From Stigmatella aurantiaca DW4/3-1 (lineage in GTDB: Bacteria; Myxococcota; Myxococcia; Myxococcales; Myxococcaceae): a DNA stretch of 64,000 nt. The DNA lies in contig NC_014623.1 of assembly GCF_000165485.1 (NCBI RefSeq), positions 3,987,501 through 4,051,500 on the forward strand, written 5' to 3'. A program made the position numbers and the translations under genes. The notes beneath the pieces are model-generated. The model was not told the origin of the DNA. It did not search any database and saw nothing but the letters and a program-made list of their open reading frames with translations. Positions 10,013 to 22,493 of this stretch are shown here, one piece after another. Within the stretch, counting starts at the first letter, position 1, and every line of letters starts with the position of its first letter.

Positions 10013-11446
10013 TCATGCGGTGGGCTGCGGAAGGTGCTTCTGGGCGAAACGGGCGGCCTCCGTGTGGGGGTACCGGTGCAGGACGTAGCGGTAGATGCTC
10101 TCGGCCCGTGCGGCGTCCTGGAGGCGCTCGGCGTGGACGCGCGCCAGCAGCACGAGCGCGCGCGAGGCCAAGGGCCCATCCGGGGCCACGTCGGCCGCGG
10201 ACTCCAGCGCCTTCACCGCCAGCGGATATTGGGCCCGGGCCGTGGCGGACTGGCCCACGAAGAGGTGCTGCGCGGCCGTCGCCTGTTTCAAGAGGGGGGA
10301 GGCCTGGAGCCCGGAATACAGGGCCAGCGCTTTCTCCACGTCCCGCGCGTCCACGGCCGCGGTCAGGGCCTGGAGCGGTTCGTTCGAGGGGGGCGCGGGT
10401 TCGGGCGGTGCCTCGGCGTCCGTGGGCGCCACCGCGCGTGGTTGGACGGAGCCCAGCGCGGGCATCAGGTAGTCCCGGGGGGCGCCATACCCGAGCGCAT
10501 CTCCCCGGTTGTACAGCAGGAGGCCAAGGGCGTGGGCCATGAGCACCGGGGCGATGCAGGTGACGAACTCCGCCACCCAGGCACAGGCAAATGCCAGGTT
10601 CAGCCAGCGGATCCCCTCGGCCACTTGGTGGCCCAGCACCAGGACACCCAAGAGGAGGGCGAGTGCCCCCAGGAGCAGGGCGTAGTCCTTGCCCAACCGG
10701 GCCGCGGAGCGGAAGACCATCAGGGGGTTGAGCATCTGGAGCAACCCATTCCCTGTCGCCGCGAGCATGAGCACCAGGGGCAGGTAGAGGAAGCCTCCGA
10801 GGAGCAACAGCCCGAGGAAGGGATCTCGCGCCACCTTGTCCCACGCGAGCGTGGGCTGTCCTCCGGTGACGTAGAAGGCGGGCGTGTTGGAGAGCTTGGC
10901 CGCCGGCCCTCGCACATCCCAGTCCGCGAAAAACAGCAGGTAGATGACCGCGGGCAACCACACCACCGAGGTGGCCACGAGGCCCCGGAGCGCGGGCACC
11001 ACACAGTCTTGAAAGAAGTCTGAGTAGTCCGGGACATCCAGCTCCCGGTCTCCTCGGGCCGTGGAGCGGACGATGGAGAAGAAGGCGCTCCAGAAGACGC
11101 CGAGCCAGAGGAGCGCGGGCAGCCACTTGAGGAGCAGGAAGGTCTCCACCACGGCCCAGCGGAGAACCGCCAGGATGGCGCTCAACGCCAGGAGAAAGGG
11201 GAGGCCGGACTGGGAGAAGGGATAGCGCCAGGCCTGGCGCAGCCGCGCAGCCAGCGGCACGCTCGAGCGGTGCAGGAGGATCGGCTCGGCGCGGCCCTGG
11301 CACAGGCCGCAGGAGAGGTACTCCGTGGAGATCGCCCGGCGCACGGTGACGCAATCCGGGCAGAGCAGGGCCTGGCAGTTGTCGCAGCTCCAGCCTGCCA
11401 GGACTTTGGGATGGCGTTGGCAGGGACCGGCGGAAGTGTCGTGCAT
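10013..11446 (-). CDS. Membrane protein with N-terminal B-box-like zinc finger and C-terminal TPR-like region
   Basis: 477 residues. The N-terminus has a Cys/His-rich finger (CQRHP, CDNCQ, CPDC, then CGLCQG) like B-box or zinc-ribbon modules on bacterial membrane proteins. It is followed by several hydrophobic helices (for example LPFLLALSAILAVL, LLLLGGFLYLPLVLML, LLLGALALLLGVLVLG) resembling DUF4013-type membrane domains. A Pro/Ala linker leads to about 130 residues of helical, TPR-like sequence (ALALYSGLQASPLLKQA; ESIYRYVLHRYPHTEAA). I do not recognise a specific function. Such layouts are common in myxobacterial housekeeping of envelope proteins. Its 3' end converges on the glycosidase gene. 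Confidence 0.75.
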   Translation of the reverse strand: MHDTSAGPCQRHPKVLAGWSCDNCQALLCPDCVTVRRAISTEYLSCGLCQGRAEPILLHRSSVPLAARLRQAWRYPFSQSGLPFLLALSAILAVLRWAVVETFLLLKWLPALLWLGVFWSAFFSIVRSTARGDRELDVPDYSDFFQDCVVPALRGLVATSVVWLPAVIYLLFFADWDVRGPAAKLSNTPAFYVTGGQPTLAWDKVARDPFLGLLLLGGFLYLPLVLMLAATGNGLLQMLNPLMVFRSAARLGKDYALLLGALALLLGVLVLGHQVAEGIRWLNLAFACAWVAEFVTCIAPVLMAHALGLLLYNRGDALGYGAPRDYLMPALGSVQPRAVAPTDAEAPPEPAPPSNEPLQALTAAVDARDVEKALALYSGLQASPLLKQATAAQHLFVGQSATARAQYPLAVKALESAADVAPDGPLASRALVLLARVHAERLQDAARAESIYRYVLHRYPHTEAARFAQKHLPQPTA

Positions 11447-11470
11447 GGGCTCCCTCTTCCGCGGAAGAGG

Positions 11471-13240
11471 TTAGCCCAGCGTTTCATCCCATGTCGCTCC
11501 CAGCCAGGACTGGAAGGCGGCCTTCTGGGCGTCGGACAGCTTGTCTACCCGGGTGAGGTAGATCGCGTCCGCGGGCTTCTGGCCCAGGACGACGGAGAAC
11601 TCCATCAGCTTGTCCCGGCGGAACACCGTGAGGCGCACCGTGTCTCCGGGGCGCTTGTCCTCGCACCGGCTCAGCAGGTTGGCCGCATCCACCTTGTAGC
11701 CATCCAGCGCCACGAGTTCGTCCTCGGGGGTCAGGCCCGCCTCCATCGCGGGGGAGTCTTCCAGCACGGTGGCCAGCGTGGCGCTGCCCTTGGTGGTCAG
11801 GCCCAGCCAGCCCCGGGGCTTCACCTCCCCGTTCTTGCGCGGCGGGGGCGTGCCGCCCTTGTCGTTGGCGGACTCGCGCACCCGGTACTCCACCTGGAGG
11901 CCCACGTGGGCGAGGACCGAGTAGTCCAGCTCCCGGGTGGAGCGCACCGCGAGATCGAAGAAGGGGGTGAAGTCCCTGCCGGTGACTTCCTGGACCGCCG
12001 CCTCCATGCCTTCCTCGGGCATGCCCGAGCCGTCGCCGTAACGCCTCCACAGCAAGCGCAGCACGTCGTCCAGGCCCTTGAGGTTGTCGGTGGCGCGGCG
12101 GATCTCCAGGTCCAGCAGCACGCACACCACCTCGCCCTTGAGGTAGTAGGAGATGGCGCTGTTGGGCGAGTTCTCGTCCGGGCGGTAGTGTTTGATCCAG
12201 CTCAACAGCGAGGCATCCGCCAGCGTCTGCGAGCGCCGGCCCGGCGTGCCGTGGAGCTGGGTGAACGTCTCTCCCAGGCGCGTCAGGTAGCGCTGGGCGG
12301 ACATGAGCCCCGCGCGGCGCACGAAGAGGTTGTCGTAGTAGGACGTCATCCCCTCGAAGGCCCACAGCAGGGTGGTGTAGTTCTCCTGGGAGTAATCGAA
12401 GGGCACGAACGCGCGCGGCTTGATGCGCTTGATGTTCCACAGGTGGAAGTACTCGTGCGCCGCGAGCGTGAGGAAGTCCTCCCAGCCGCGGAGGGTCTGC
12501 AAGCCCGCGCGGGGAAACAGCAAGGCCGTGGAGTTCTTGTGCTCCAGGCCTCCTCGCCCTTTGTCCGTGAGGTAGACGAGGAACAAGTAGCGCCGCATGG
12601 GCAGCCCGTTGAACAGCCGTGCCTGGGCCTCGCAGATGCGCTGGAGATCCGCGGTCAGTCTCTCCGCGTCCGGGACCGTGTCGCCCCAGATGACCACCTC
12701 GTGGGGGACCCCCGCGGCGGTGAAGGACAGGGGCGTGTGGGGGCCGATCTCGAAGGGGCTGTCCACCAGCTCGTCATAATCCGGGGCGATGAAGGTCTCG
12801 CCCTCGCCCTCCAGGGCGCAGAAGGTCCGCCACCCCTCCGGCGCCACCACGGTGACGCGGTGCTCGTGGTGCCGCGTGGCTTCCGTGTAGAGAAAGAGCG
12901 TGGCCCCGTTGAAGTAGCCGTGAGAGCCATCCAGGTGGCTGGTCCGCACCGTCAGCTCGTTGGCGTAGACGCGGTAGCGCACCGTCACTGCCTGCCCCCC
13001 CGCCTTCACCCGGAAGGTGCGCTTGTCCACGCGGTGGAGGGGCAGCGCCTCTCCCCTCGGGCCCACCGCCGTCACGTCCTGGAGGTGCCGGGCGTATTCG
13101 CGCACCAGGTAGCTGCCCGGCGTCCACACCGGCAGAACCGCGTCCAGCACGTCCTGCCCCGGGGGAAAGCGCGCCTCCACCTCGAACAGGTGCGAGTGCG
13201 GGCGGGACATGGAGACGCGATAGTGGACCGCTTCCTTCAT
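11471..13240 (-). CDS. M61 family metallopeptidase (glycyl aminopeptidase-like) with PDZ domain
   Basis: 589 residues. The N-terminal beta domain (YRVSMSRPHSHLFEVEARF, PVWTPGSYLVREYARH) is typical of M61. The catalytic zinc motif is HEYFHLWN (His262, Glu263, His266) with the third ligand Glu in AFEGMTSYYDN. A PDZ domain follows (GWLGLTTKG, AGLTPEDELVALDGYKVDA). No signal peptide is visible, so it is predicted to be cytoplasmic. Family members release N-terminal glycine or alanine. GGAG lies about 10 bases before the ATG. The rRNA methyltransferase gene lies just upstream on the same strand (36-base gap), so the two may be cotranscribed. Confidence 0.9.
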   Translation of the reverse strand: MKEAVHYRVSMSRPHSHLFEVEARFPPGQDVLDAVLPVWTPGSYLVREYARHLQDVTAVGPRGEALPLHRVDKRTFRVKAGGQAVTVRYRVYANELTVRTSHLDGSHGYFNGATLFLYTEATRHHEHRVTVVAPEGWRTFCALEGEGETFIAPDYDELVDSPFEIGPHTPLSFTAAGVPHEVVIWGDTVPDAERLTADLQRICEAQARLFNGLPMRRYLFLVYLTDKGRGGLEHKNSTALLFPRAGLQTLRGWEDFLTLAAHEYFHLWNIKRIKPRAFVPFDYSQENYTTLLWAFEGMTSYYDNLFVRRAGLMSAQRYLTRLGETFTQLHGTPGRRSQTLADASLLSWIKHYRPDENSPNSAISYYLKGEVVCVLLDLEIRRATDNLKGLDDVLRLLWRRYGDGSGMPEEGMEAAVQEVTGRDFTPFFDLAVRSTRELDYSVLAHVGLQVEYRVRESANDKGGTPPPRKNGEVKPRGWLGLTTKGSATLATVLEDSPAMEAGLTPEDELVALDGYKVDAANLLSRCEDKRPGDTVRLTVFRRDKLMEFSVVLGQKPADAIYLTRVDKLSDAQKAAFQSWLGATWDETLG

Positions 13241-13276
13241 GGCCAGGGTTCTCCGTGGCGGGGTCGTCCCCCGAGC

Positions 13277-14719
13277 CTACTTCGCCCGGACGAGGATGGC
13301 TCCGAAGAACCCATCGGTGTTGTGCGTATGCGGCGCCAGGCGCAGGAAGGGGCCCCGGCTGACTTTGTCACCCAGCTCCGGGCCCAGCTCCTGGGAGACC
13401 GGACGCACGGTGAAGTCCGGGTGGCGGGAGAGGAAGTCTTCGATCACCGCCTCGTTCTCTTCCCGCAGGATGCTGCAAGTGCCGTAGATGAGCCGGCCCC
13501 CGGGCTTCACCATCGTGGAGAAGCGCTCCAGCAGCGCCTTCTGCCGGGCCGCGTGCTCCTTCAGATCCTCCGGCGTGAGCCGGTAGCGGCCGTCCGGCTT
13601 GCGGCGGTAGGTGCCGGTGCCGCTGCACGGCGCATCCACCAGCACCCGGTCCGCTTTGTCCTTCAAGGCCACCAGGGCCTCGTCCGCGGCGGGGCCCTCG
13701 GCGGGGATGAGCTGGGTCCGCACGTTGTGGACGCCCGCGCGGCGGGCCCGCTTGCGCAGCTCCTCGATGCGGACTTCGTCCACGTCCAGGGCGTGCAGGT
13801 CTCCCCGGTTCTTCATCTGCGCGGCGAGCTGCAAGGTCTTTCCGCCCGCTCCCGCGCAGGCATCCACCACGCGCGTGGGCGGCGAATCCACCAGCATGCC
13901 GAGCAGCTGGCTGCCCTCGTCCTGCAGCTCCAGCAGCCCGTCCTTGAAGCATTGCAGGGAGAAGACGTTGACGCGCGTCTCCAACCACAGTCCCAGGGGC
14001 GAGAGGGGCGTGGGCGTGCTCTCGACTCCCTCCGCGGCCAGCCGCCGCTGGAGCTCCGCCCGGTCCCCCTTGAGCAGGTTGACGCGCGCGGTGAGCGGGG
14101 CGCGCTCGTTCATGGCCTCCGCGGCCTGGCTGGCGTCTTCCCCGAACGTCTCCTGGAACTTCACCGCGAGAAAATCCGGCAGCGAGGCGGCGATGGGGAA
14201 GCGCTTGGCCAGGGGCAGTGCCTCCAGTTCTCCGGCGGCCCGGGGAAGGGCGCCGAGGGAGGTGCTGTCCTCGGAGGGGAGCGAGGAGGAATTCACCACC
14301 GCTTCGAGCGGCTCGCCGTGGAGGATCCGGGAGGCGGCCAGGCGCAGCACGTCCTGGCGTGTGGTTTCCAGGCGGTCGAAGCCGGGCCGCGCGCGCGCCA
14401 GGAGCCAATCCACCGTGCGCTGGCGGCGCAGCAGGGCGTAGACCCGCTCCGCGACGGCCCGGCGCTCGTTGGAGTACAGGTGCGCCTTGCGGCGCAGGGT
14501 GAAGTCCAGGGCCCGGTCGGACAGGCGGCCCTCGTGGCGCACCGAGCCGTACGCCTCCAGGCAGGCCTGCAACACCAGATCCTCGCGCAGGGGGCGCGGG
14601 GCGCGCTCGAGGGGCGTCCCACGGGCGGCGCCGGGGGCGGCCTCCTTCGCGTGGGCGCGCTTCGAGGGGGCTTGCTTCGCGCTCTGCTTCTTCGGTGCCG
14701 GACGGTGGGATCGTTTCAT
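13277..14719 (-). CDS. RsmB/NOP family rRNA (cytosine-C5) methyltransferase
   Basis: 480 residues from ATG 14719; the longer frame upstream adds a low-complexity stretch that overlaps a terminator hairpin. A Lys/Ala-rich tail (1-40) precedes a NusB-like helical domain (about 45-170). The SAM-binding motif I is DACAGAGGK (286-294), motif IV DAPCSGTG has the releasing Cys365, and motif VI YGTCS has the nucleophile Cys415. Two active-site cysteines mark C5-cytosine RNA methyltransferases. RsmB (16S C967) is the closest type because of the NusB-like domain. Target base is inferred. Confidence 0.9.
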   Translation of the reverse strand: MKRSHRPAPKKQSAKQAPSKRAHAKEAAPGAARGTPLERAPRPLREDLVLQACLEAYGSVRHEGRLSDRALDFTLRRKAHLYSNERRAVAERVYALLRRQRTVDWLLARARPGFDRLETTRQDVLRLAASRILHGEPLEAVVNSSSLPSEDSTSLGALPRAAGELEALPLAKRFPIAASLPDFLAVKFQETFGEDASQAAEAMNERAPLTARVNLLKGDRAELQRRLAAEGVESTPTPLSPLGLWLETRVNVFSLQCFKDGLLELQDEGSQLLGMLVDSPPTRVVDACAGAGGKTLQLAAQMKNRGDLHALDVDEVRIEELRKRARRAGVHNVRTQLIPAEGPAADEALVALKDKADRVLVDAPCSGTGTYRRKPDGRYRLTPEDLKEHAARQKALLERFSTMVKPGGRLIYGTCSILREENEAVIEDFLSRHPDFTVRPVSQELGPELGDKVSRGPFLRLAPHTHNTDGFFGAILVRAK

Positions 14720-14811
14720 GGCGAGCTCCAGGGCCCAGGGGAGAAGGGAACCTGCGGGTGCAGGCGCCCATCGCATCCCAGCCGCTTGGTGGCAAGCACG
14801 GAAGCAGGGCA

Positions 14812-14840
14812 GGGGCGCCAGGAGCGGGCTCCTGGCCCCC
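14812..14840 (-). terminator. Hairpin downstream of metallophosphoesterase gene
   Basis: GCCAGGAG (14817-14824) pairs perfectly with CTCCTGGC (14829-14836) around a 4-base loop, extended by GGGG/CCCC across a one-base bulge. It lies between the phosphoesterase stop (14870) and the methyltransferase start. Only weak U-richness follows. Confidence 0.5.
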
Positions 14841-14869
14841 GCCCTGGCGCTCGGCACCGGGGGGCGCGC

Positions 14870-16492
14870 CTACCGCGAGCGGCGGCGTCGCCAGAGTCCG
14901 GCGAGCGCCCAGGCGCCCAAGGGGAACAGGGCCCCGAGGGGAACCGTGGAGCACCCGCCTGCCTGGGCATCGGCGTCGCCCTCTCCTCCCACGGAGGAGC
15001 CTGGCACCCCCGTGGAGGGCCCCGTCGTGGGCGGCTGGGGGATGCCAGGGGAGGGGATGCTCGTTCCCGGGGGCGCGACGGTCACCTGGGCCGTGGCGGT
15101 CTGCTGGGCCGTGCCCGAGGTGGCCGTCGCCGTCACCGTGTACTGCCCTTCCTTCGGGTAGACGTGGGACACCGCGTCGCCCTCGCCCGTCTCCTCGTCT
15201 CCAAAGTCCCAGCGCACCGTGGCGCCCATCAGGGAGGACTCGGCGCGGAAGAGGGCCTGGTGGGGGGCGACGCCTCGCTCGCCTTCGACGATCAAGGTCA
15301 GCGGGTGGGGGGTGGGCTTCTCCTCGGGGGCGAGCTGCTTGGTCAGGGTCAGGGAGTCCGCGGTGGCGCCCGAGGGCGTCACGAGCCGGGCGGTGAGGGT
15401 CCCGTCGATGACCTCGACGTCCAGGAAGCCATAGTCCTTGTTGTTCCGGACGGCGCTCCACGCGGGCTTCGAGACGGGGAAGTCCCGCAGGTTGGCGCCA
15501 CCGCTGCCCACCACCAAGTAGGGGATCCCCGTGCCGGAGGGGGCCACCGCGTCGCCCTTCATCGCGTAGGCGCGCTCGTAGTGGTGGTCATGTCCGGTGA
15601 GGACGAGGTCCACCCCATACTTCTCGAAGAGGGGGCTGAACTCCCGGCGCATGAGGAGCTGGGAGCCGTGGTCTCCGCTCGACCAGGGGGGGTGGTGGAA
15701 GAAGACGATCTTCCACGGCGCCTTGCTGGCGGCGAGATCCTGCTCTGCCCAGGCCTTCTGCGCCGCCAGGGTGCAGCGGTCCTTCGAGGCCAGGCCAATG
15801 GCGCAGTTCGAGTCCAGCCCCACGAAGTGCACATGCCCCCAGTCGAACGAGTAGTAGCGCTCGCCCCCACTGGGGCTGGTGGGCAGGTAGAGGTTGTCCA
15901 GGTAGGGCTGGGCTTGATCCGTGACGTACTCGTGGTTGCCCGCCACCGCGAAGAACGGAACCTCCATCAGCAGGTCCTTCATGGGGACGAACATGTTGTT
16001 CTGGATCTGCTCCTCGGTGCCGGACTCGTAGGCGACATCCCCCATCCCGATGAAGAGTTCAGGCCGGTAGGAGAGCATGCTGGCGGCCACTTCCTTCTGG
16101 CGGGAGCCGCCCGTGCCGAAGTCCCCCATGGCGGCGAAGTGCACCCGGCGCGTGCCGGGGACGGGCGCGGTGTGGAAGCGCTTGGGGCTCGAACTCGCGC
16201 CGCACGTCTCCACCACGTAGGTGTACTCGGCCCCGGGCGACAGGCCATTGAGCACCACGGCGTGGATGCGCCCACTGTCCGTCGAGCGGGCCGTCTGGTT
16301 CGTGGCCCCTCCGGTGCCGTAGCGTACCTCCGGGGTGCAGTTGGCGTTCACGCGGAACGCGACGGTGGCTGTGTCGGGTCCCACCCGTTGCAGGTAGGGG
16401 GAGCGGGTGAGCGTTGCCGCGTGCGCCACCCCCGTGGTCAGCACGAGAGCGGCAGCCAGGGCGCCGAGCGCAGGGACCTTCGCCAAATGCAT
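14870..16492 (-). CDS. Exported purple-acid-phosphatase-like metallophosphoesterase with PKD domain and MYXO-CTERM-like tail
   Basis: 540 residues with signal peptide (LAAALVLTTGVAHAAT), an N-terminal fibronectin-like domain (about 28-110), then a metallophosphoesterase core: GDFGTGG, GMGDVAYESG, GNHEY, HHPPW and GHDHHYER supply the two-metal site. A PKD domain follows (TVRWDFGDEETGEGD to YTVTATATSG), then a Pro/Gly/Thr linker and a C-terminus of GGCSTVP, hydrophobic helix and RRRRSR. This Cys-helix-Arg ending is the MYXO-CTERM pattern used for sorting to the myxobacterial cell surface. The enzyme probably hydrolyses phosphate esters outside the cell. It is flanked by terminator-like hairpins on both sides, so it is likely monocistronic. 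Confidence 0.9.
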   Translation of the reverse strand: MHLAKVPALGALAAALVLTTGVAHAATLTRSPYLQRVGPDTATVAFRVNANCTPEVRYGTGGATNQTARSTDSGRIHAVVLNGLSPGAEYTYVVETCGASSSPKRFHTAPVPGTRRVHFAAMGDFGTGGSRQKEVAASMLSYRPELFIGMGDVAYESGTEEQIQNNMFVPMKDLLMEVPFFAVAGNHEYVTDQAQPYLDNLYLPTSPSGGERYYSFDWGHVHFVGLDSNCAIGLASKDRCTLAAQKAWAEQDLAASKAPWKIVFFHHPPWSSGDHGSQLLMRREFSPLFEKYGVDLVLTGHDHHYERAYAMKGDAVAPSGTGIPYLVVGSGGANLRDFPVSKPAWSAVRNNKDYGFLDVEVIDGTLTARLVTPSGATADSLTLTKQLAPEEKPTPHPLTLIVEGERGVAPHQALFRAESSLMGATVRWDFGDEETGEGDAVSHVYPKEGQYTVTATATSGTAQQTATAQVTVAPPGTSIPSPGIPQPPTTGPSTGVPGSSVGGEGDADAQAGGCSTVPLGALFPLGAWALAGLWRRRRSR

Positions 16493-16623: not shown

Positions 16624-17364
16624 CTACTTCTGGACGGTATAGGAGGAGAGTTCCTCGAGCCGCTCGCCGTCCTCCTTCACCTTGCCGACGCCCGGCACGA
16701 GCCAGTAGATGCGCTCCTTGCCATCCTTATCGGGGCGATCCCGCAGGATCTTGAGGGCATTGGTGAAGGTGCCGGCCGGCACGGTGACGGTCTCGTTCAC
16801 GGCCACGACGCGCCAGGTGTACGTCCGCTCCTTCTCCTCCTGGGTGCCATCGTCCAGCCGGGTCAGCTCGCGGATGGTGGAGGCGGTGCTCCAGTTCAGC
16901 GCCTGCGGCCGGGCCAGGGACTTCACCGTGGCCGGAGACCAGGTCGTCACCCGGGCGAGGGCCCCACCCTTGCGGTCCTCCTCGCGCAGGCGCACCACCG
17001 TGCCGTTGTCGAGTTCCACCTGCCAGGACAGCTCTTCCAGGTGCGGTTGGATGCTCCGCATCGCGGTGGCCGTCACATCCATCTCCGGCACGCGCTCGAT
17101 GCCCATCACCTCCACCGTCTTGTCAAAGGTCCCGCGAACGGGGTCCGTGATGCGGTAGGTCCACGAGGAGCCCACCGTGAGGGGCCAGAGGCTCTGACGG
17201 ACGTCCGGGCTCTCCGGCGAATCAGGGTTCGGATTCAAGGGGTCGCCCGGGAGGGCTCCAGGACCGTCCGAGGGACCATTCGCGCCCGCGGGGAGACTGC
17301 CGCCACCGCCACACCCCACCAACCATGCTCCGGCCACCAGGGCCGCCACCACACTGCGCTTCAT
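16624..17364 (-). CDS. Putative lipoprotein, last gene of VTC/DUF4956 operon
   Basis: 246 residues from ATG 17364, which overlaps the upstream stop by ATGA. The N-terminus MKRSVVAALVAGAWLVGCGG is a lipoprotein signal with lipobox LVGC. An Asp/Pro-rich linker leads to a domain starting LWPLTVGSSWTYRITDP, with TYTWRVVAVNETVTVPAGTF and RIYWLVPGVGKVKEDG. This matches a widespread uncharacterised outer-surface domain found in many myxobacterial lipoproteins. No catalytic residues are evident. Coupling to the operon suggests an envelope accessory role. Confidence 0.75.
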   Translation of the reverse strand: MKRSVVAALVAGAWLVGCGGGGSLPAGANGPSDGPGALPGDPLNPNPDSPESPDVRQSLWPLTVGSSWTYRITDPVRGTFDKTVEVMGIERVPEMDVTATAMRSIQPHLEELSWQVELDNGTVVRLREEDRKGGALARVTTWSPATVKSLARPQALNWSTASTIRELTRLDDGTQEEKERTYTWRVVAVNETVTVPAGTFTNALKILRDRPDKDGKERIYWLVPGVGKVKEDGERLEELSSYTVQK

Positions 17365-18062
17365 ACTTGCTCCTCCCGTGCCCCTTTGGGGCTCATCGCC
17401 GCCCATCGCAGTCCCCGAAGGGCTGCTCCCTGCGTCAGGCTCAGCGCCGCGACGAGGGTTCCTGGATCCTTCTCCTCGACTTCCATCTCCAGCCGGTGCC
17501 CGTCGAAGTCGAGCGCGCAGGCCTTCACCATCACATTGCGCTCACCGAGGACCTTGCGCAGCGAGGCCTCCGCGGTGACGAGATCATCCGATTGGGCCGA
17601 GAGCATCACCCGCTGCTTCGGCGCTTTGTCCTCCTTGGTGATCAGGTCCAGCACCATCAGCAGGCCGGCGACGAACAGGGTGCCCATGCCGGCGAGCCCC
17701 AGGCTGCCGTGCCCGCAGGCCATGCCCAGGCCGATCATCAGAAAGAGGATGGCCGCGTCGCGCGGATCCTTGAGGCCCGAGCGGAAGCGCACGAAGCCGC
17801 CCAGTCCCACCAGCCCGAAGGCCTTGGCCACGCTGTCGCCGATGACGGCGGTGATGACCGCCGCGGCGGTGCACAGCAACACCTGCGCCTGGACCATGTC
17901 CGCCTTGGGCAGCGCGCGCCCCATCATCAGCCGCCAGGGCCGCAGGGACAGGAGCGCGCCGATGAGCACTGCGGCCGTCATCCGAGGGATGATCGAGGCC
18001 ATGGGAATCGAGGACAGCTCTTTGCCCAGGTCACTGAAGACTGCCGAGAAGGTGGGCTCCAT
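17361..18062 (-). CDS. DUF4956-like membrane protein
   Basis: 233 residues with about four hydrophobic segments: MTAAVLIGALLSL, a stretch around QAQVLLCTAAAVITAVIGD, AILFLMIGLGMACG and GMGTLFVAGLLMVLDLI. Between the second and third is GLGGFVRFRSGLKDPRDAAI, the most conserved part of DUF4956 proteins, which are distantly MgtC-like. A soluble C-terminal domain of about 75 residues has an ACT-like pattern. DUF4956 genes are commonly paired with VTC polyphosphate-polymerase-domain genes, as here. Its biochemical role is unknown; a membrane partner or channel for polyphosphate production is the usual speculation. Confidence 0.75.
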   Translation of the reverse strand: MEPTFSAVFSDLGKELSSIPMASIIPRMTAAVLIGALLSLRPWRLMMGRALPKADMVQAQVLLCTAAAVITAVIGDSVAKAFGLVGLGGFVRFRSGLKDPRDAAILFLMIGLGMACGHGSLGLAGMGTLFVAGLLMVLDLITKEDKAPKQRVMLSAQSDDLVTAEASLRKVLGERNVMVKACALDFDGHRLEMEVEEKDPGTLVAALSLTQGAALRGLRWAAMSPKGAREEQV

Positions 18063-18071
18063 GGTGTTTCC

Positions 18072-19766
18072 TCAGATGCTGGCGCGGGCTTCGGAGACGG
18101 TGGCCGGACGCACCACGCGGTCCAGGGCCGTTTCGTGGGCGGTGGCGATGACACAGTAGGCGTTGCGCAGCAGCGGCAGCCGCCCCGGGAAGGTGCTCAG
18201 CACGCGGTGGATGAGCGCCTCCGCGCGGTCCGTCAGCGGCAGCCCCCGGAGCGAGGAGAGGACGGTGGCGGGCCAGCGGTCCGCGAAGTCCTCGCGCAGG
18301 CGCCAGGCCCGGAAGTCATCCATGCCGTCGATCGAGTCGATGGCCTCCTTGGTGAGCGCGGCCCCCTGCTCGCGCAGGGCGAAGGCCTCGGCGGTGGCGA
18401 GCCCCGTCAGCGAGCGGAGCACCAGCTTCAGCGCCTTGCCCATGAGCTGCTCGCGCAAGCCGCTGGCGAACGGCGAGTCCTGGCCGGTGACGCTGCGCAG
18501 CACCGCGAGCCGGTCATGCGAGACGAGCGACTCGCGCAGCGCATCCACGCGCTCTCCTTTGAGGCCCGTGAGGCTGCGCGCCACCTCCGAGTACAGCTTC
18601 TTCTGGATGCCCAGCTCGCGCACGGACCAGGCCACCTCGTTCTCCACGCCCGCCAGGCCCAGGAGCACCTGAGGCAGGTGCCGGTCATGCAGCGCGCGCT
18701 CCCGCAGGGCCCACGCCTCCTGGGTGTCATTGCCCTTGAGCCCTGTCACCACTTCCCCCGGGGCGAGCGGGTAGAGCTGCGAGCGCAGCGCCATGGCGCG
18801 GGGGGCCTGGAGGCTACCGAGGCTGGCGGCGACATCCACCGGCACCACCTTGGAGAGCAGCTCCCGCAGCGACCACGAGGCTTCATCCTCCAGGCCCGAG
18901 AGGCTGCGCACCGACAGGCCCGGGAAGCGCTCCACGGACGCGAGCCTGCGCTGGTGGGGCGCCAGGCCCGGCACGCCGCCCAGCAGCCACACCGCCAGGG
19001 CGGGCTCGCGCACCTCCAGCGCATCCAGCCCCTGGAAGAAGCGCTCCTCCACGTGCTCCACCGTCACCGGCTCCGGGGTCACCTGGGCCGAGGGGCTGAT
19101 GCACTGGACCTGGGGCTCGCGCCGCTCCAGCCTCGCGAGCACCGCGTCGACGATGCGCTGCTCCAGCGCCCACAGGGGCTGGTCGTTGTTCTCGATGACG
19201 AGCCAGCGCGCCGGATCCTTGCGCGCCATCTCCAGGAAGGCCTCCCGCACGCGCACGGACAGCCCCGCGCCCGCCAACCCCTTGCGGCTGTCTCCGTCCG
19301 AGTTCCGGCCTTCCTTGACCTTGCCCAGCCGCTTGCGCAGCCGCGCCAGGTCCGGCTCCACGTCCACCAGGATGACCAGGTCCGGCCAGATGCCCTTCGA
19401 GGCCAGCTCGCACGCGGGCGCCAGATCTTCCAGGGGCAGGCCCCGCCCGCCGCCGCTCAGGGCCAGCTGCGAGTAGAGGTAGCGGTCGCTGATGCACACC
19501 TCGCCCCGGCAGAGCGCGGGGGAGATGACTTCCTCGAGCTGCTGAGCGTCCCGCGCCAGGTTGAGGAAGAACTCGGTGCGCGCGCCCATCTCCAGCAGCT
19601 TCGAGTCCCGGGTGAAGTCCCGGACGCGTCTCGCGATGGGAGACTGCAACTCGCCGCCCTCGCGGGCGTGAGCCACCTTGTAGCCCTGACGCCGCAACCG
19701 CGCGGCCAGGAGGTTGGAGAGTGTCGTCTTGCCGCTGCCGTCGATGCCTTCGAAGTCGATAAACAC
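18072..19766 (-). CDS. Thymidylate-kinase-like P-loop protein fused to a helical repeat domain
   Basis: 564 residues with a GTG start at 19766, six bases after the VTC-domain stop. Residues 1-215 resemble thymidylate kinase: P-loop FEGIDGSGKTT (5-15), ISDRYLYSQLALSGGG (92-107, the DR(Y) motif), VILVDVEPDLARLRKR (131-146) and a basic LID-like region 143-162. Residues about 286-524 are roughly nine copies of a 27-28-residue repeat with consensus SLxGLxxxxAWxLRE. No ordinary Tmk carries this tail, so housekeeping dTMP kinase is doubtful. The P-loop fold is shared with PPK2 polyphosphate kinases; with the VTC gene beside it, a polyphosphate- or nucleotide-coupled phosphotransferase is an attractive inference, but TMP kinase activity remains possible. 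Confidence 0.8.
   Translation of the reverse strand: MFIDFEGIDGSGKTTLSNLLAARLRRQGYKVAHAREGGELQSPIARRVRDFTRDSKLLEMGARTEFFLNLARDAQQLEEVISPALCRGEVCISDRYLYSQLALSGGGRGLPLEDLAPACELASKGIWPDLVILVDVEPDLARLRKRLGKVKEGRNSDGDSRKGLAGAGLSVRVREAFLEMARKDPARWLVIENNDQPLWALEQRIVDAVLARLERREPQVQCISPSAQVTPEPVTVEHVEERFFQGLDALEVREPALAVWLLGGVPGLAPHQRRLASVERFPGLSVRSLSGLEDEASWSLRELLSKVVPVDVAASLGSLQAPRAMALRSQLYPLAPGEVVTGLKGNDTQEAWALRERALHDRHLPQVLLGLAGVENEVAWSVRELGIQKKLYSEVARSLTGLKGERVDALRESLVSHDRLAVLRSVTGQDSPFASGLREQLMGKALKLVLRSLTGLATAEAFALREQGAALTKEAIDSIDGMDDFRAWRLREDFADRWPATVLSSLRGLPLTDRAEALIHRVLSTFPGRLPLLRNAYCVIATAHETALDRVVRPATVSEARASI
18195..18911 (-). repeat. About nine 27-28-residue protein repeats within the kinase fusion
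   Basis: Coding repeat. Successive units begin VRSLSGLEDEASWSLREL, AASLGSLQAPRAMALRSQ, VTGLKGNDTQEAWALRER, LLGLAGVENEVAWSVREL, ARSLTGLKGERVDALRES, LRSVTGQDSPFASGLREQ, LRSLTGLATAEAFALREQ, IDSIDGMDDFRAWRLRED and LSSLRGLPLTDRAEALIH. Each unit looks like a pair of short helices, suggesting an elongated solenoid. Confidence 0.8.
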
Positions 19767-19772
19767 GGTGCC

Positions 19773-20489
19773 CTAACCCCCAAGAACCCCATCCGCGGCG
19801 AAGGAGTGAATCCTCGCCATCCCCTCGGCGAACTTGCTGTACGCCGGTTTCCTGCCGCCCGGGTGCATCGCCGCCAGCCACTCTGGCAACTCCTGACCCA
19901 GGTGCTTCACCTCCATCACCACACGGCTGTCCAGGGAGAGCGGTGGCCCGAGCCGCTCCTGGGTCAGGGCCGTCTCCGACAGCGCCAGCCCGGGAGGGAT
20001 GGCGTGGTAGCCAATGGCTCGGTCCACCGTCACCCGCCAGGTGTGCGAGGCCTGGTACACGTGCCGCTGGTACGTCACCCCCAACACGGGAATCAGTCCG
20101 CCCCCGGCAATCAACGGCAGCAGGCCCGTGCCCCCGCGCAGGACGCTCTTCAGCCGCGAGCGCGGTACCCACACCCGGCGCTTCTGCGTCACCCCATTGC
20201 GCTCACGTTTGGCCTCGAGCACCACGCGCTCGACACCGTCGGCCCCCAGGTCCGGCGAGTACTCCTTGGTGCGGACCTTCAGGCAATCCTGCGGGGTGAG
20301 CATGGCCCGCTGGGCCAGCGGGTACCCCGGCTTGTCGAAGTAGACGGACACGATGCGCGTGGGCGGAGGGAGGTAGCCATCCAGCTCCAGGCACAGCCGA
20401 GAGCAGATCGTCGCGGCGGCCTGAGCGTCCAGCACCAGCTTGAATTCGCGGCGCAGCTTGGTGACTTCACCTTCGGCGAACGAGAGCAT
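19773..20489 (-). CDS. VTC-domain polyphosphate polymerase-like protein
   Basis: 238 residues, the length of a stand-alone VTC catalytic domain. The tunnel-lining motifs are in family order: RREFKL (13-18), SVYFD (48-52), LKVRTKEY (70-77), VVLEAKRERN (89-98) with KRR at 103-105, GVTYQRHVY (137-145), VTVDRA (153-158), VVMEVKH (190-196) and AYSKF (216-220). In yeast Vtc4 the equivalent Arg/Lys/Glu residues bind and extend polyphosphate from ATP. The basic residues are well kept, so activity is plausible. Preceded by the porin gene (16-base gap) and followed by the P-loop repeat protein. No signal peptide, so it should be cytoplasmic. Confidence 0.85.
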   Translation of the reverse strand: MLSFAEGEVTKLRREFKLVLDAQAAATICSRLCLELDGYLPPPTRIVSVYFDKPGYPLAQRAMLTPQDCLKVRTKEYSPDLGADGVERVVLEAKRERNGVTQKRRVWVPRSRLKSVLRGGTGLLPLIAGGGLIPVLGVTYQRHVYQASHTWRVTVDRAIGYHAIPPGLALSETALTQERLGPPLSLDSRVVMEVKHLGQELPEWLAAMHPGGRKPAYSKFAEGMARIHSFAADGVLGG

Positions 20490-20505
20490 GATCGTATCCC
20501 CGTTC

Positions 20506-21672
20506 CTAGAATCGGGTGGCCAGCTGCAGGGACAGTTCGGTGCCAGGCACTTCGTCGCCTGGACGAAGGCCGCGCTCGGCCTGTAGCTGTGCCTTGAAGA
20601 AGTCCGAGAAGAGGATGTTGATGCCCCCCACGGTTGTCCAGCCGCGTCCGCTCACATCTCCCCGGAGCTGAAGCGCTTCCACGCCGGCGACCGGCTGGAG
20701 GGCCCACTCCTGGGAGATCGGCAGCTCGTAGCTGAGCAGCCCGAGCTGCGCGGTGAAGGGGCCCAGGGCGAGCTGTCCCCGGACGAACTCACCCGAGACG
20801 TGCAGGGCTCCCAGCTTGACGAGGGCATCGGCCGCCACCGCGTGGCGGGGGATTCCCTCCATCACCTGCACCATGTAGCTGCTGACGCCCACGGTGAGCG
20901 CCTTGAAGGGGCGTACGCTCACGCGCGCGGCCGCGTCCTCGCTGGTGCGCTTGCCCAACTCGTCCTCGGAGCCCTCGAAGAGGCCGCCGGAGATCCTCAG
21001 GTTCCACGCCCCCTTGAGCCGGACCTCGCCCATCATCCCCAGGCGCCGCCCGCCCAACTGGTGCGTCTCCGTCAGGTAGTCCTCGACGAGCCCCCGGCTG
21101 ACCAACGGCAGATCCCAGCTCGACTCGAGGGTGCGCTCCAGGAAGGGGGCCTTGAACTGGCCGGCATAGAGCCGAAGGCTCTTCTGGCCATTCGCGAGCC
21201 GGACGAAGGCGTCCTTCAGGATGTTCTTCGAGGACAAATCGCCGGTCACCTCGGCTTCGAGGTGCTTGAACGAGGCGCCCACGCCCACGCGCGCCGAAGG
21301 GATCGACAGCGTCCGGGCGTAGTCCGTGCGCTCATCGGCCCGGGCCCGGGCGAAGACGCGGCCGAACACGCGCACCTCGCGCTGGGGGGGCCGCTCCTCG
21401 GCCGCGCTCAGGCTCTCGCCCAGCGGTTCGATCTTGGGCTTGGGCTCTTCGGGCGGGGCGTCCGGGCTGCGGGTGCTCGCGGGCCGCGTCACCGCGCCGG
21501 GGTTCACCGGCAGCGCCTCGGCGATGAGGGTGGGCTCGGCAGGGGAGGCGGAGGCTTCCTGGGAAGTCGCCTCCGGGGAGGAGGCCTCTTGTGCCCATGC
21601 GGGCACGCTCACCAGGATCGCGGTGAGAAGGCTCCGCCACGCCGATTCCACCCCGCCACGCCACCCACCCAT
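20506..21672 (-). CDS. Outer-membrane porin, phosphate-selective OprO/OprP-like
   Basis: 388 residues from ATG 21672 with GGGAGG 8 bases upstream. Signal peptide (SLLTAILVSVPAWAQ), then a Pro/Glu/Ala-rich linker of about 90 residues. The barrel portion resembles phosphate-selective porins: KDAFVRLANGQKSLRLYAGQF followed by KAPFLERTLESS is the OprO/P signature, and the end LSLQLATRF has the terminal aromatic needed for outer-membrane insertion. Alternating beta strands fill the rest. As first gene of the VTC operon it could bring phosphate or polyphosphate across the outer membrane; selectivity is inferred only from family. Confidence 0.8.
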   Translation of the reverse strand: MGGWRGGVESAWRSLLTAILVSVPAWAQEASSPEATSQEASASPAEPTLIAEALPVNPGAVTRPASTRSPDAPPEEPKPKIEPLGESLSAAEERPPQREVRVFGRVFARARADERTDYARTLSIPSARVGVGASFKHLEAEVTGDLSSKNILKDAFVRLANGQKSLRLYAGQFKAPFLERTLESSWDLPLVSRGLVEDYLTETHQLGGRRLGMMGEVRLKGAWNLRISGGLFEGSEDELGKRTSEDAAARVSVRPFKALTVGVSSYMVQVMEGIPRHAVAADALVKLGALHVSGEFVRGQLALGPFTAQLGLLSYELPISQEWALQPVAGVEALQLRGDVSGRGWTTVGGINILFSDFFKAQLQAERGLRPGDEVPGTELSLQLATRF

Positions 21673-21854: not shown

Positions 21855-22493
21855 TTACAGGCGCGACGGTTCATCCGGCTGGGGGGCAGAAGAAATTTCG
21901 GTCTCGGCGGCAGGCGGCTCTGTGGGTTTTTCCTTCTGGAGCATGCGGACCCCCCAGATCATCGTGAGGAGCCCGCCCAGCCCCAACAGGCCCCAAAGGA
22001 TGAAGGAGGGCACCTGCGGGGAGCCCACCTCGAACTCCGCGTGGAGCACCTTGAGCCGGGTTGTCCGGAAGCTCACGTCGAGCTGGTGGACGGCGGCGCG
22101 CTCCGGCACGAACTCCGCGTGCCAGTTGACGGCGCCCTTCTGGACGGTTTGGACTTGGCCGTGGGTCGAGCCCCGCTCGCGGAGCGAGAGGGTGATGGGG
22201 CCCTCGAAGGGGGCGCCCTGGAAGCTGCCGACATGAAGGGTGACCTTCACGGGCTCCCCGGCGCGGGGGGCCAAGGGTTGGAGGGAGCCTTGCAGCCGGT
22301 CCTCCGCGTCAGCCCAGGCCAGCTCCAGCACGCCGCCACGCCGGTCCACGGCAATTCGGTCTGGCATGTCCGCGGCCACGGCCAGGGTGGCGATCAGCAG
22401 GCAAGCGCTCGGGAACCCCCGCCCGGACGTGGTAAGACGGTTTTGCCTCCTCTTGCCCTGTCGTCTAAGATGCCCTGTCTCCACACCACCCAC
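21855..22493 (-). CDS. Single-pass membrane protein of unknown function
   Basis: 212 residues using GTG at 22493; another GTG at 22484 is possible and no good Shine-Dalgarno decides. A hydrophobic stretch near residues 27-40 (ACLLIATLAVAAD) looks like a signal peptide. A beta-rich extracytoplasmic domain follows (EPVKVTLHVGSFQGAPFEGP, with WHAEFVPERAAVHQLDVSFR), then one transmembrane helix (FILWGLLGLGGLLTMIWGV) and a short Pro/Glu cytoplasmic tail. It resembles an Ig-like domain anchored to the membrane. Not recognised further. Divergent from the Ser/Thr kinase gene, with only 32 bases between starts. Confidence 0.65.
   Translation of the reverse strand: MGGVETGHLRRQGKRRQNRLTTSGRGFPSACLLIATLAVAADMPDRIAVDRRGGVLELAWADAEDRLQGSLQPLAPRAGEPVKVTLHVGSFQGAPFEGPITLSLRERGSTHGQVQTVQKGAVNWHAEFVPERAAVHQLDVSFRTTRLKVLHAEFEVGSPQVPSFILWGLLGLGGLLTMIWGVRMLQKEKPTEPPAAETEISSAPQPDEPSRL
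22443..22471 (+). promoter_or_regulatory. Candidate promoter of first Ser/Thr kinase
   Basis: TTGCCT (22443-22448) and TAAGAT (22466-22471) lie 17 bases apart, each 4 of 6 to the sigma-70 consensus, giving a leader of about 48 bases. The element would sit inside the 5' end of the divergent gene. Confidence 0.35.

Follow-up and report, generated by a model that had tools for sequence, protein, structure and literature searches.

A VTC-DUF4956 operon of Stigmatella aurantiaca as a candidate envelope phosphate module associated with CotH kinases

A group of five closely spaced genes in Stigmatella aurantiaca DW4/3-1 raises the question of what function could unite a VTC-type polyphosphate polymerase domain with a DUF4956 membrane protein, a thymidylate-kinase-like fusion protein (here TMKrep), a porin and a lipoprotein. 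The genes lie in a window of 64,000 nucleotides, which is the whole stretch of DNA that was analysed and represents positions 3,987,501-4,051,500 of one 10,260,756-base contig (NC_014623.1). We propose a VTC-DUF4956-CotH envelope phosphate module, of which this operon is the version found in Myxococcaceae and which would serve the synthesis, export and extracytoplasmic use of polyphosphate. To this reading we assign a probability of about 0.4; this figure refers to the overall picture, including use of the product as either a ligand or a phosphate source, and single steps may fail. The genes, given by window position, are as follows:

20506..21672, minus strand: porin, with a signal peptide, a low-confidence linker of ~75 residues and a 16-strand outer-membrane barrel related to Porin_O_P
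19773..20489, minus strand: VTC, a polyphosphate polymerase domain alone, 238 amino acids, no SPX match (PF09359, E=5.8e-15)
18072..19766, minus strand: TMKrep, a thymidylate-kinase-like domain (residues ~1-213) with an alpha solenoid (~255-525) (PF02223, E=8.6e-25)
17361..18062, minus strand: DUF4956, an inner-membrane protein with ~4-5 hydrophobic segments (PF16316, E=2.9e-11)
16624..17364, minus strand: LIPO, a predicted DUF3108-like lipoprotein with lipobox LVGC, whose start overlaps the DUF4956 stop

The order porin, VTC, TMKrep, DUF4956 and lipoprotein, as described in an earlier note on this DNA, was confirmed by Pfam and gene calls, with gaps of 16 nt (porin-VTC), 6 nt (VTC-TMKrep) and 9 nt (TMKrep-DUF4956) and an overlap of 4 nt between DUF4956 and the lipoprotein gene. 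The DUF3108_like match of LIPO (E=0.001) falls under the Pfam cut-off, and its start is more likely located at 17364 (MKRSVVAALVAGAWLVGC) than at 17406. A promoter and terminator scan returned nothing beyond chance. The predicted proteins are expected to be distributed over the cytosol and the inner and outer membranes, in agreement with the earlier note.

That note had missed the strongest co-occurring partner of the gene set, CotH. VTC was detected in 94 of 195 Myxococcota genomes, all 94 of which also carry DUF4956 and CotH (Fisher p=3e-39), and within the family the same was observed for 71/71 VTC genomes (p about 1e-16), though these tests count related genomes as independent and the p-values overstate the case, a first point against our proposal. 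The total lack of exceptions is nevertheless informative, and as VTC was never found without CotH-type surface kinases in the searched genomes, it suggests that the polyphosphate is made for extracellular use. Six CotH matches are present in the S. aurantiaca genome, one of them within a paralogous CotH-VTC-porin-TMKrep-DUF4956 cluster (cluster B; L071:10576-16452, corresponding to ~811,500-817,500 of contig C1), for which the scores were 2.6e-58 (CotH), 1.1e-18 (VTC) and 6.6e-9 (Porin_O_P), and which is limited to part of the family. At a more distant locus, L079, probably from Anaeromyxobacter, the orthologous operon is adjoined by CotH (1.4e-80) and a divergent phosphatase, while in two loci of other Myxococcota families (L144 and L145) porin, CotH, VTC and DUF4956 are found together without TMKrep. 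CotH is also present in 10/10 Planctomycetota-type genomes with TMKrep, at 6 to 62 matches each.

The VTC protein scores 55.9 bits against a PF09359 cut-off of 23, and a profile of 19 of its relatives matched yeast Vtc4 (5.6e-19) more strongly than it did Vtc2 or Vtc3; a PDB search with the single sequence gave no match, whereas the profile search did. Alignment to full-length Vtc4 placed K17, R73, K75, K94, K103, R142, R152, E193, S218 and K219 opposite Vtc4 K200, R264, R266, K281, K294, R361, R373, E426, S457 and K458, respectively, so that at sequence level the basic tunnel residues, whose lack in a structural model would, according to the earlier note, refute its reading, and the metal-site glutamate are kept at 10/10 positions, R266 being represented by lysine. 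The mapped positions other than R264, R266 and E426 are active-site residues of Vtc4. Changing R264, R266 and E426 inactivates Vtc4 (PMC9911596). Synthesis of polyphosphate by VTC is well supported by these residues and is, in our view, probable. Yeast VTC couples polyphosphate synthesis to translocation (PMC9911596), and the operon has in common with the yeast complex (Vtc1/Vtc3/Vtc4) a catalytic domain with its active-site residues and a membrane partner encoded nearby; it differs in that Pfam detected neither an SPX domain nor a fused Vtc1-type membrane domain in the 238-residue protein, where VTC is the sole match, and in that the membrane partner, DUF4956, belongs to a different family. 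Two PPK1 matches in the same genome favour a specialised rather than a bulk polyphosphate pool for VTC.

The arrangement of these genes is conserved; a gene order that was not conserved would, according to the earlier note, have refuted its reading. Relatives including Hyalangium, Archangium, Myxococcus, Pyxidicoccus, Corallococcus and Citreicoccus were retrieved, genes outside the window being called with a simple script and tblastn, and the porin being sought in the fetched loci by tblastn and profile searches. A scan of genome contigs with TMKrep yielded 40 loci, of which one (L129) was discarded as a plain archaeal kinase match and 39 represent the real family. VTC is located directly upstream of TMKrep in 39/39 of these, including ten Planctomycetota-type loci, for some of which the record title says no more than 'uncultured bacterium' or 'bacterium'; the 39 loci appear to belong to two phyla. 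The VTC-TMKrep gap in Myxococcaceae is usually the same 6 nt, and the presence of VTC and DUF4956 in one operon, separated by TMKrep, is likewise conserved. A porin sequence precedes VTC in all 29 Myxococcota loci of the scan, some of which end at a contig edge, with flanking genes out of view in several short contigs; an apparent loss of the porin in genome G066 was a gene-calling artefact. The operon order is kept across the Myxococcaceae loci checked and the lipoprotein holds its place in most of them, with no tblastn match in a few of the 29. Among the Planctomycetota-type loci, all of which share VTC-TMKrep, L123 reads VTC-TMKrep-DUF4956-CotH x4, after which comes a predicted outer-membrane protein, while L124 reads DUF4956-CotH-VTC-TMKrep-CotH x4 with the same kind of outer-membrane protein, one of the CotH genes in L123 having been confirmed directly by Pfam and the others via the whole-genome search. 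Were TMKrep a conventional nucleotide kinase, and were these genes mere neighbours without joint function, the intact P-loop of its kinase domain and its occurrence alone in genome G157 would be accounted for, but this explanation is already disfavoured by the gene order, with VTC directly before TMKrep at every one of the 39 loci and apparently in two phyla, and it also has to contend with gaps of only a few nucleotides and with the loss of the base pocket described below; we regard it as very improbable.

TMKrep was examined for its fold and its conserved residues. The PF02223 match covers residues 5-196 of 564, the AlphaFold2 model (predicted local distance difference test score, pLDDT, 90.1; predicted template-modelling score, pTM, 0.88) comprises the thymidylate kinase (TMK) domain and an array of ~9-10 repeats, each built of two helices and roughly 27 residues long, the Foldseek matches are thymidylate kinases, and no Pfam family matched the repeat part. 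All 22 TMKrep sequences compared share the P-loop FEGIDGSGKTT, R35, R49, R53 and the DRY arginine without variation. Residues F66, R70 and Q101 of the Staphylococcus aureus thymidylate kinase serve as contact residues; their equivalents in the window protein are, by alignment, N, D and S, the D being nearly invariant in the family. The same three S. aureus residues have been named at the base site (PMC9553184). The earlier description as a thymidylate-kinase-like fusion thus holds for the fold, the P-loop and the phosphate-binding and DRY arginines, all shared with thymidylate kinase, whereas the pocket residues and the long C-terminal solenoid set the protein apart from a plain member of that family. 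To judge from the alignment, the thymine pocket is lost, and owing to this change the substrate is probably not dTMP; TMKrep is probably an active kinase that uses a different phosphate-bearing molecule as acceptor, and it may prime or tune VTC. The only other thymidylate-kinase match in the genome (L140; C1:4730800-4732200), the housekeeping enzyme, has canonical base-pocket Arg and Gln, and its P-loop reads GLDGAGTTT, with T at the expected Walker A lysine. An antiphage role was considered and rejected, as the PADLOC matches are confined to the generic P-loop kinase portion. An orphan TMKrep homologue (L084:7609-9723) has an RsmB-type methyltransferase as its neighbour, and VTC, DUF4956 and CotH were not detected in its genome. 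The fusion of a TMK domain with a solenoid, common to Myxococcota and Planctomycetota, is an architecture for which we found no description.

DUF4956 scores 43.8 bits against a cut-off of 30.6, its hydropathy indicates ~4-5 hydrophobic segments, and alignment identified a conserved AFxLVGLGxFxRF stretch together with K98. On account of its constant pairing with VTC and by analogy to the yeast complex, DUF4956 may conduct polyphosphate across the inner membrane, a role to which we would give slightly less than even odds. The window porin matches Porin_O_P (PF07396) weakly when searched directly (E=0.086, 12.5 bits versus a cut-off of 20.9), while its best orthologue reaches E=9.4e-5 and the cluster B paralogue, to which it is homologous (hhalign 98.4%), passes the cut-off at 35.9 bits; it is also homologous to the Porin_O_P protein encoded beside CotH-VTC-DUF4956 in other Myxococcota. 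In the AlphaFold2 model, of medium confidence (pLDDT 70.7), the barrel is made of 16 strands and the loop that joins strands 5 and 6 contains a helix, both of these being features of OprO and OprP; Foldseek returned OprO at 2.8e-10 and OprP at 5.2e-10 among general porins that score about equally well. Inward-facing residues, crudely estimated by alternation, comprise 16 K/R versus 12 D/E. That the porin conducts polyphosphate or products thereof is conceivable but doubtful.

The conserved block extends beyond the five genes and includes two flanking members, both in place in most relatives:

21855..22493, minus strand: UP, predicted to have a periplasmic domain and, at its C-terminus, a membrane segment; possibly the first gene (Filamin only, 0.068)
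14870..16492, minus strand: PAP, a secreted purple-acid-phosphatase-like protein with a PKD domain, probable associated gene (Metallophos 6.8e-18, PKD_4 5.4e-13)

UP lies 182 nt upstream of the porin gene, has a hydrophobic segment near residue 164 and is conserved in place at 38-56% identity wherever the contig reaches it. PAP is a neighbour in most Myxococcaceae and recurs at L079, where it is divergent and adjoins CotH. The conserved phosphatase, together with the relation of the porin to a family whose members OprP and OprO take up phosphate and pyrophosphate (PMC9769906), would suit phosphorus scavenging and storage, in which PAP would free phosphate, the porin import phosphate or pyrophosphate, VTC store it as polyphosphate and DUF4956 sense or regulate the process. 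Such a role accounts neither for the strict association with CotH and DUF4956 nor for a related gene set beside Pel loci of Gram-positive bacteria, which lack an outer membrane. Two PPK1 are already available for bulk storage, and no recognised phosphatase neighbour was found at cluster B. We therefore consider scavenging distinctly unlikely.

The Gram-positive loci also show that the description of the locus as an undescribed system was overstated. In streptococci, clostridia and bifidobacteria, cotH, a polyphosphate polymerase gene and DUF4956 are contiguous with pelDEADAFG, and CotH was suggested as a possible Pel regulator (PMC7112168), while one Clostridium perfringens locus combines two VTC-domain genes with CotH (PMC2879425); no paper naming both DUF4956 and VTC was found in the open-access literature searched. 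The Pel accessory genes, cotH-PPP-DUF4956(-DUF4832), share with our operon a VTC-type polymerase and DUF4956 in one set, along with CotH (PMC7112168), but in S. aurantiaca CotH is unlinked and Pel genes were not found near the operon. This kind of gene set is hence already published, if functionally unexplained, and TMKrep, the 16-strand porin and the lipoprotein are the additions made here. The proximity to Pel genes, and the LTD-domain secreted proteins encoded in the VTC clusters studied here, would fit matrix modification, whereby an exopolysaccharide or surface protein is phosphorylated by CotH as transferase and VTC and DUF4956 provide an activated carrier of phosphate, not necessarily long-chain polyphosphate. 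Such a pathway is unlikely by our estimate. Against it, none of the genes scanned around the window operon was identified as a polysaccharide synthase, and the VTC residues match chain synthesis of the Vtc4 type.

Under the envelope phosphate module that we favour, we infer that the soluble VTC domain would use ATP to build polyphosphate on the cytosolic side and pass the chain to DUF4956, which would act as the inner-membrane conduit in the manner of the membrane part of the yeast Vtc complex. The porin would let polyphosphate or its products through the outer membrane. CotH lipoprotein kinases at the cell surface, whose genes lie elsewhere in the genome, would then employ it extracellularly, either as a source of phosphate or as a ligand. 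TMKrep, with its kinase domain carried on a solenoid scaffold, would act in the cytosol on an acceptor that bears phosphate but is not dTMP, and would probably prime VTC or tune it. Several observations weigh against this scheme. CotH is neither inside nor beside the window operon. Genome G157 has TMKrep but no detected VTC, DUF4956 or CotH, and a profile search near its TMKrep found no VTC relative. DUF4956 is only weakly like MgtC (E=0.008; planctomycete relative E=7e-6) and no solved structural relative was found for it, which makes a channel role a guess. Among 23 orthologues the net charge of the barrel varies between about -4 and +8, which is no proof of anion selectivity, and homology of the window porin to the outer-membrane proteins that hold the equivalent position in planctomycetes was tested and, being undetectable, rejected. 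Biochemical evidence for bacterial VTC or DUF4956 was not found in the open-access literature searched, and published CotH kinase activity uses ATP.

ATP is scarce outside the cell, and extracellular or periplasmic kinases have no obvious supply of it. If VTC-DUF4956 does export polyphosphate, CotH-type kinases would have a phosphate source, and bacteria a counterpart of the yeast synthesis-coupled translocation machine. That polyphosphate serves CotH as an extracellular phosphate donor is unlikely by our estimate, and the fullest version, in which VTC-DUF4956 is a synthesis-and-export machine, its product the donor for CotH, and the solenoid kinase and outer-membrane pore complete the route in Myxococcota, is quite unlikely. 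The gene set is tightly kept in soil-dwelling myxobacteria and some planctomycetes, and as VTC never occurs without DUF4956 and CotH in the searched Myxococcota, the question is directly testable in Myxococcus xanthus.

Large secreted proteins adjoin VTC genes at three loci (L122:2014-5814, L118:1528-5508 and L143:5364-6557), with lamin-tail domains where scanned (L122 and L143) and a dockerin-like end in L122; these are possible CotH substrates or anchors. After the operon, three more minus-strand genes (10013-14857) are linked to it in many relatives: one is uncharacterised, one encodes an RsmB/F methyltransferase according to Pfam, and the third we take, by our own reading, to be M61-peptidase-like.

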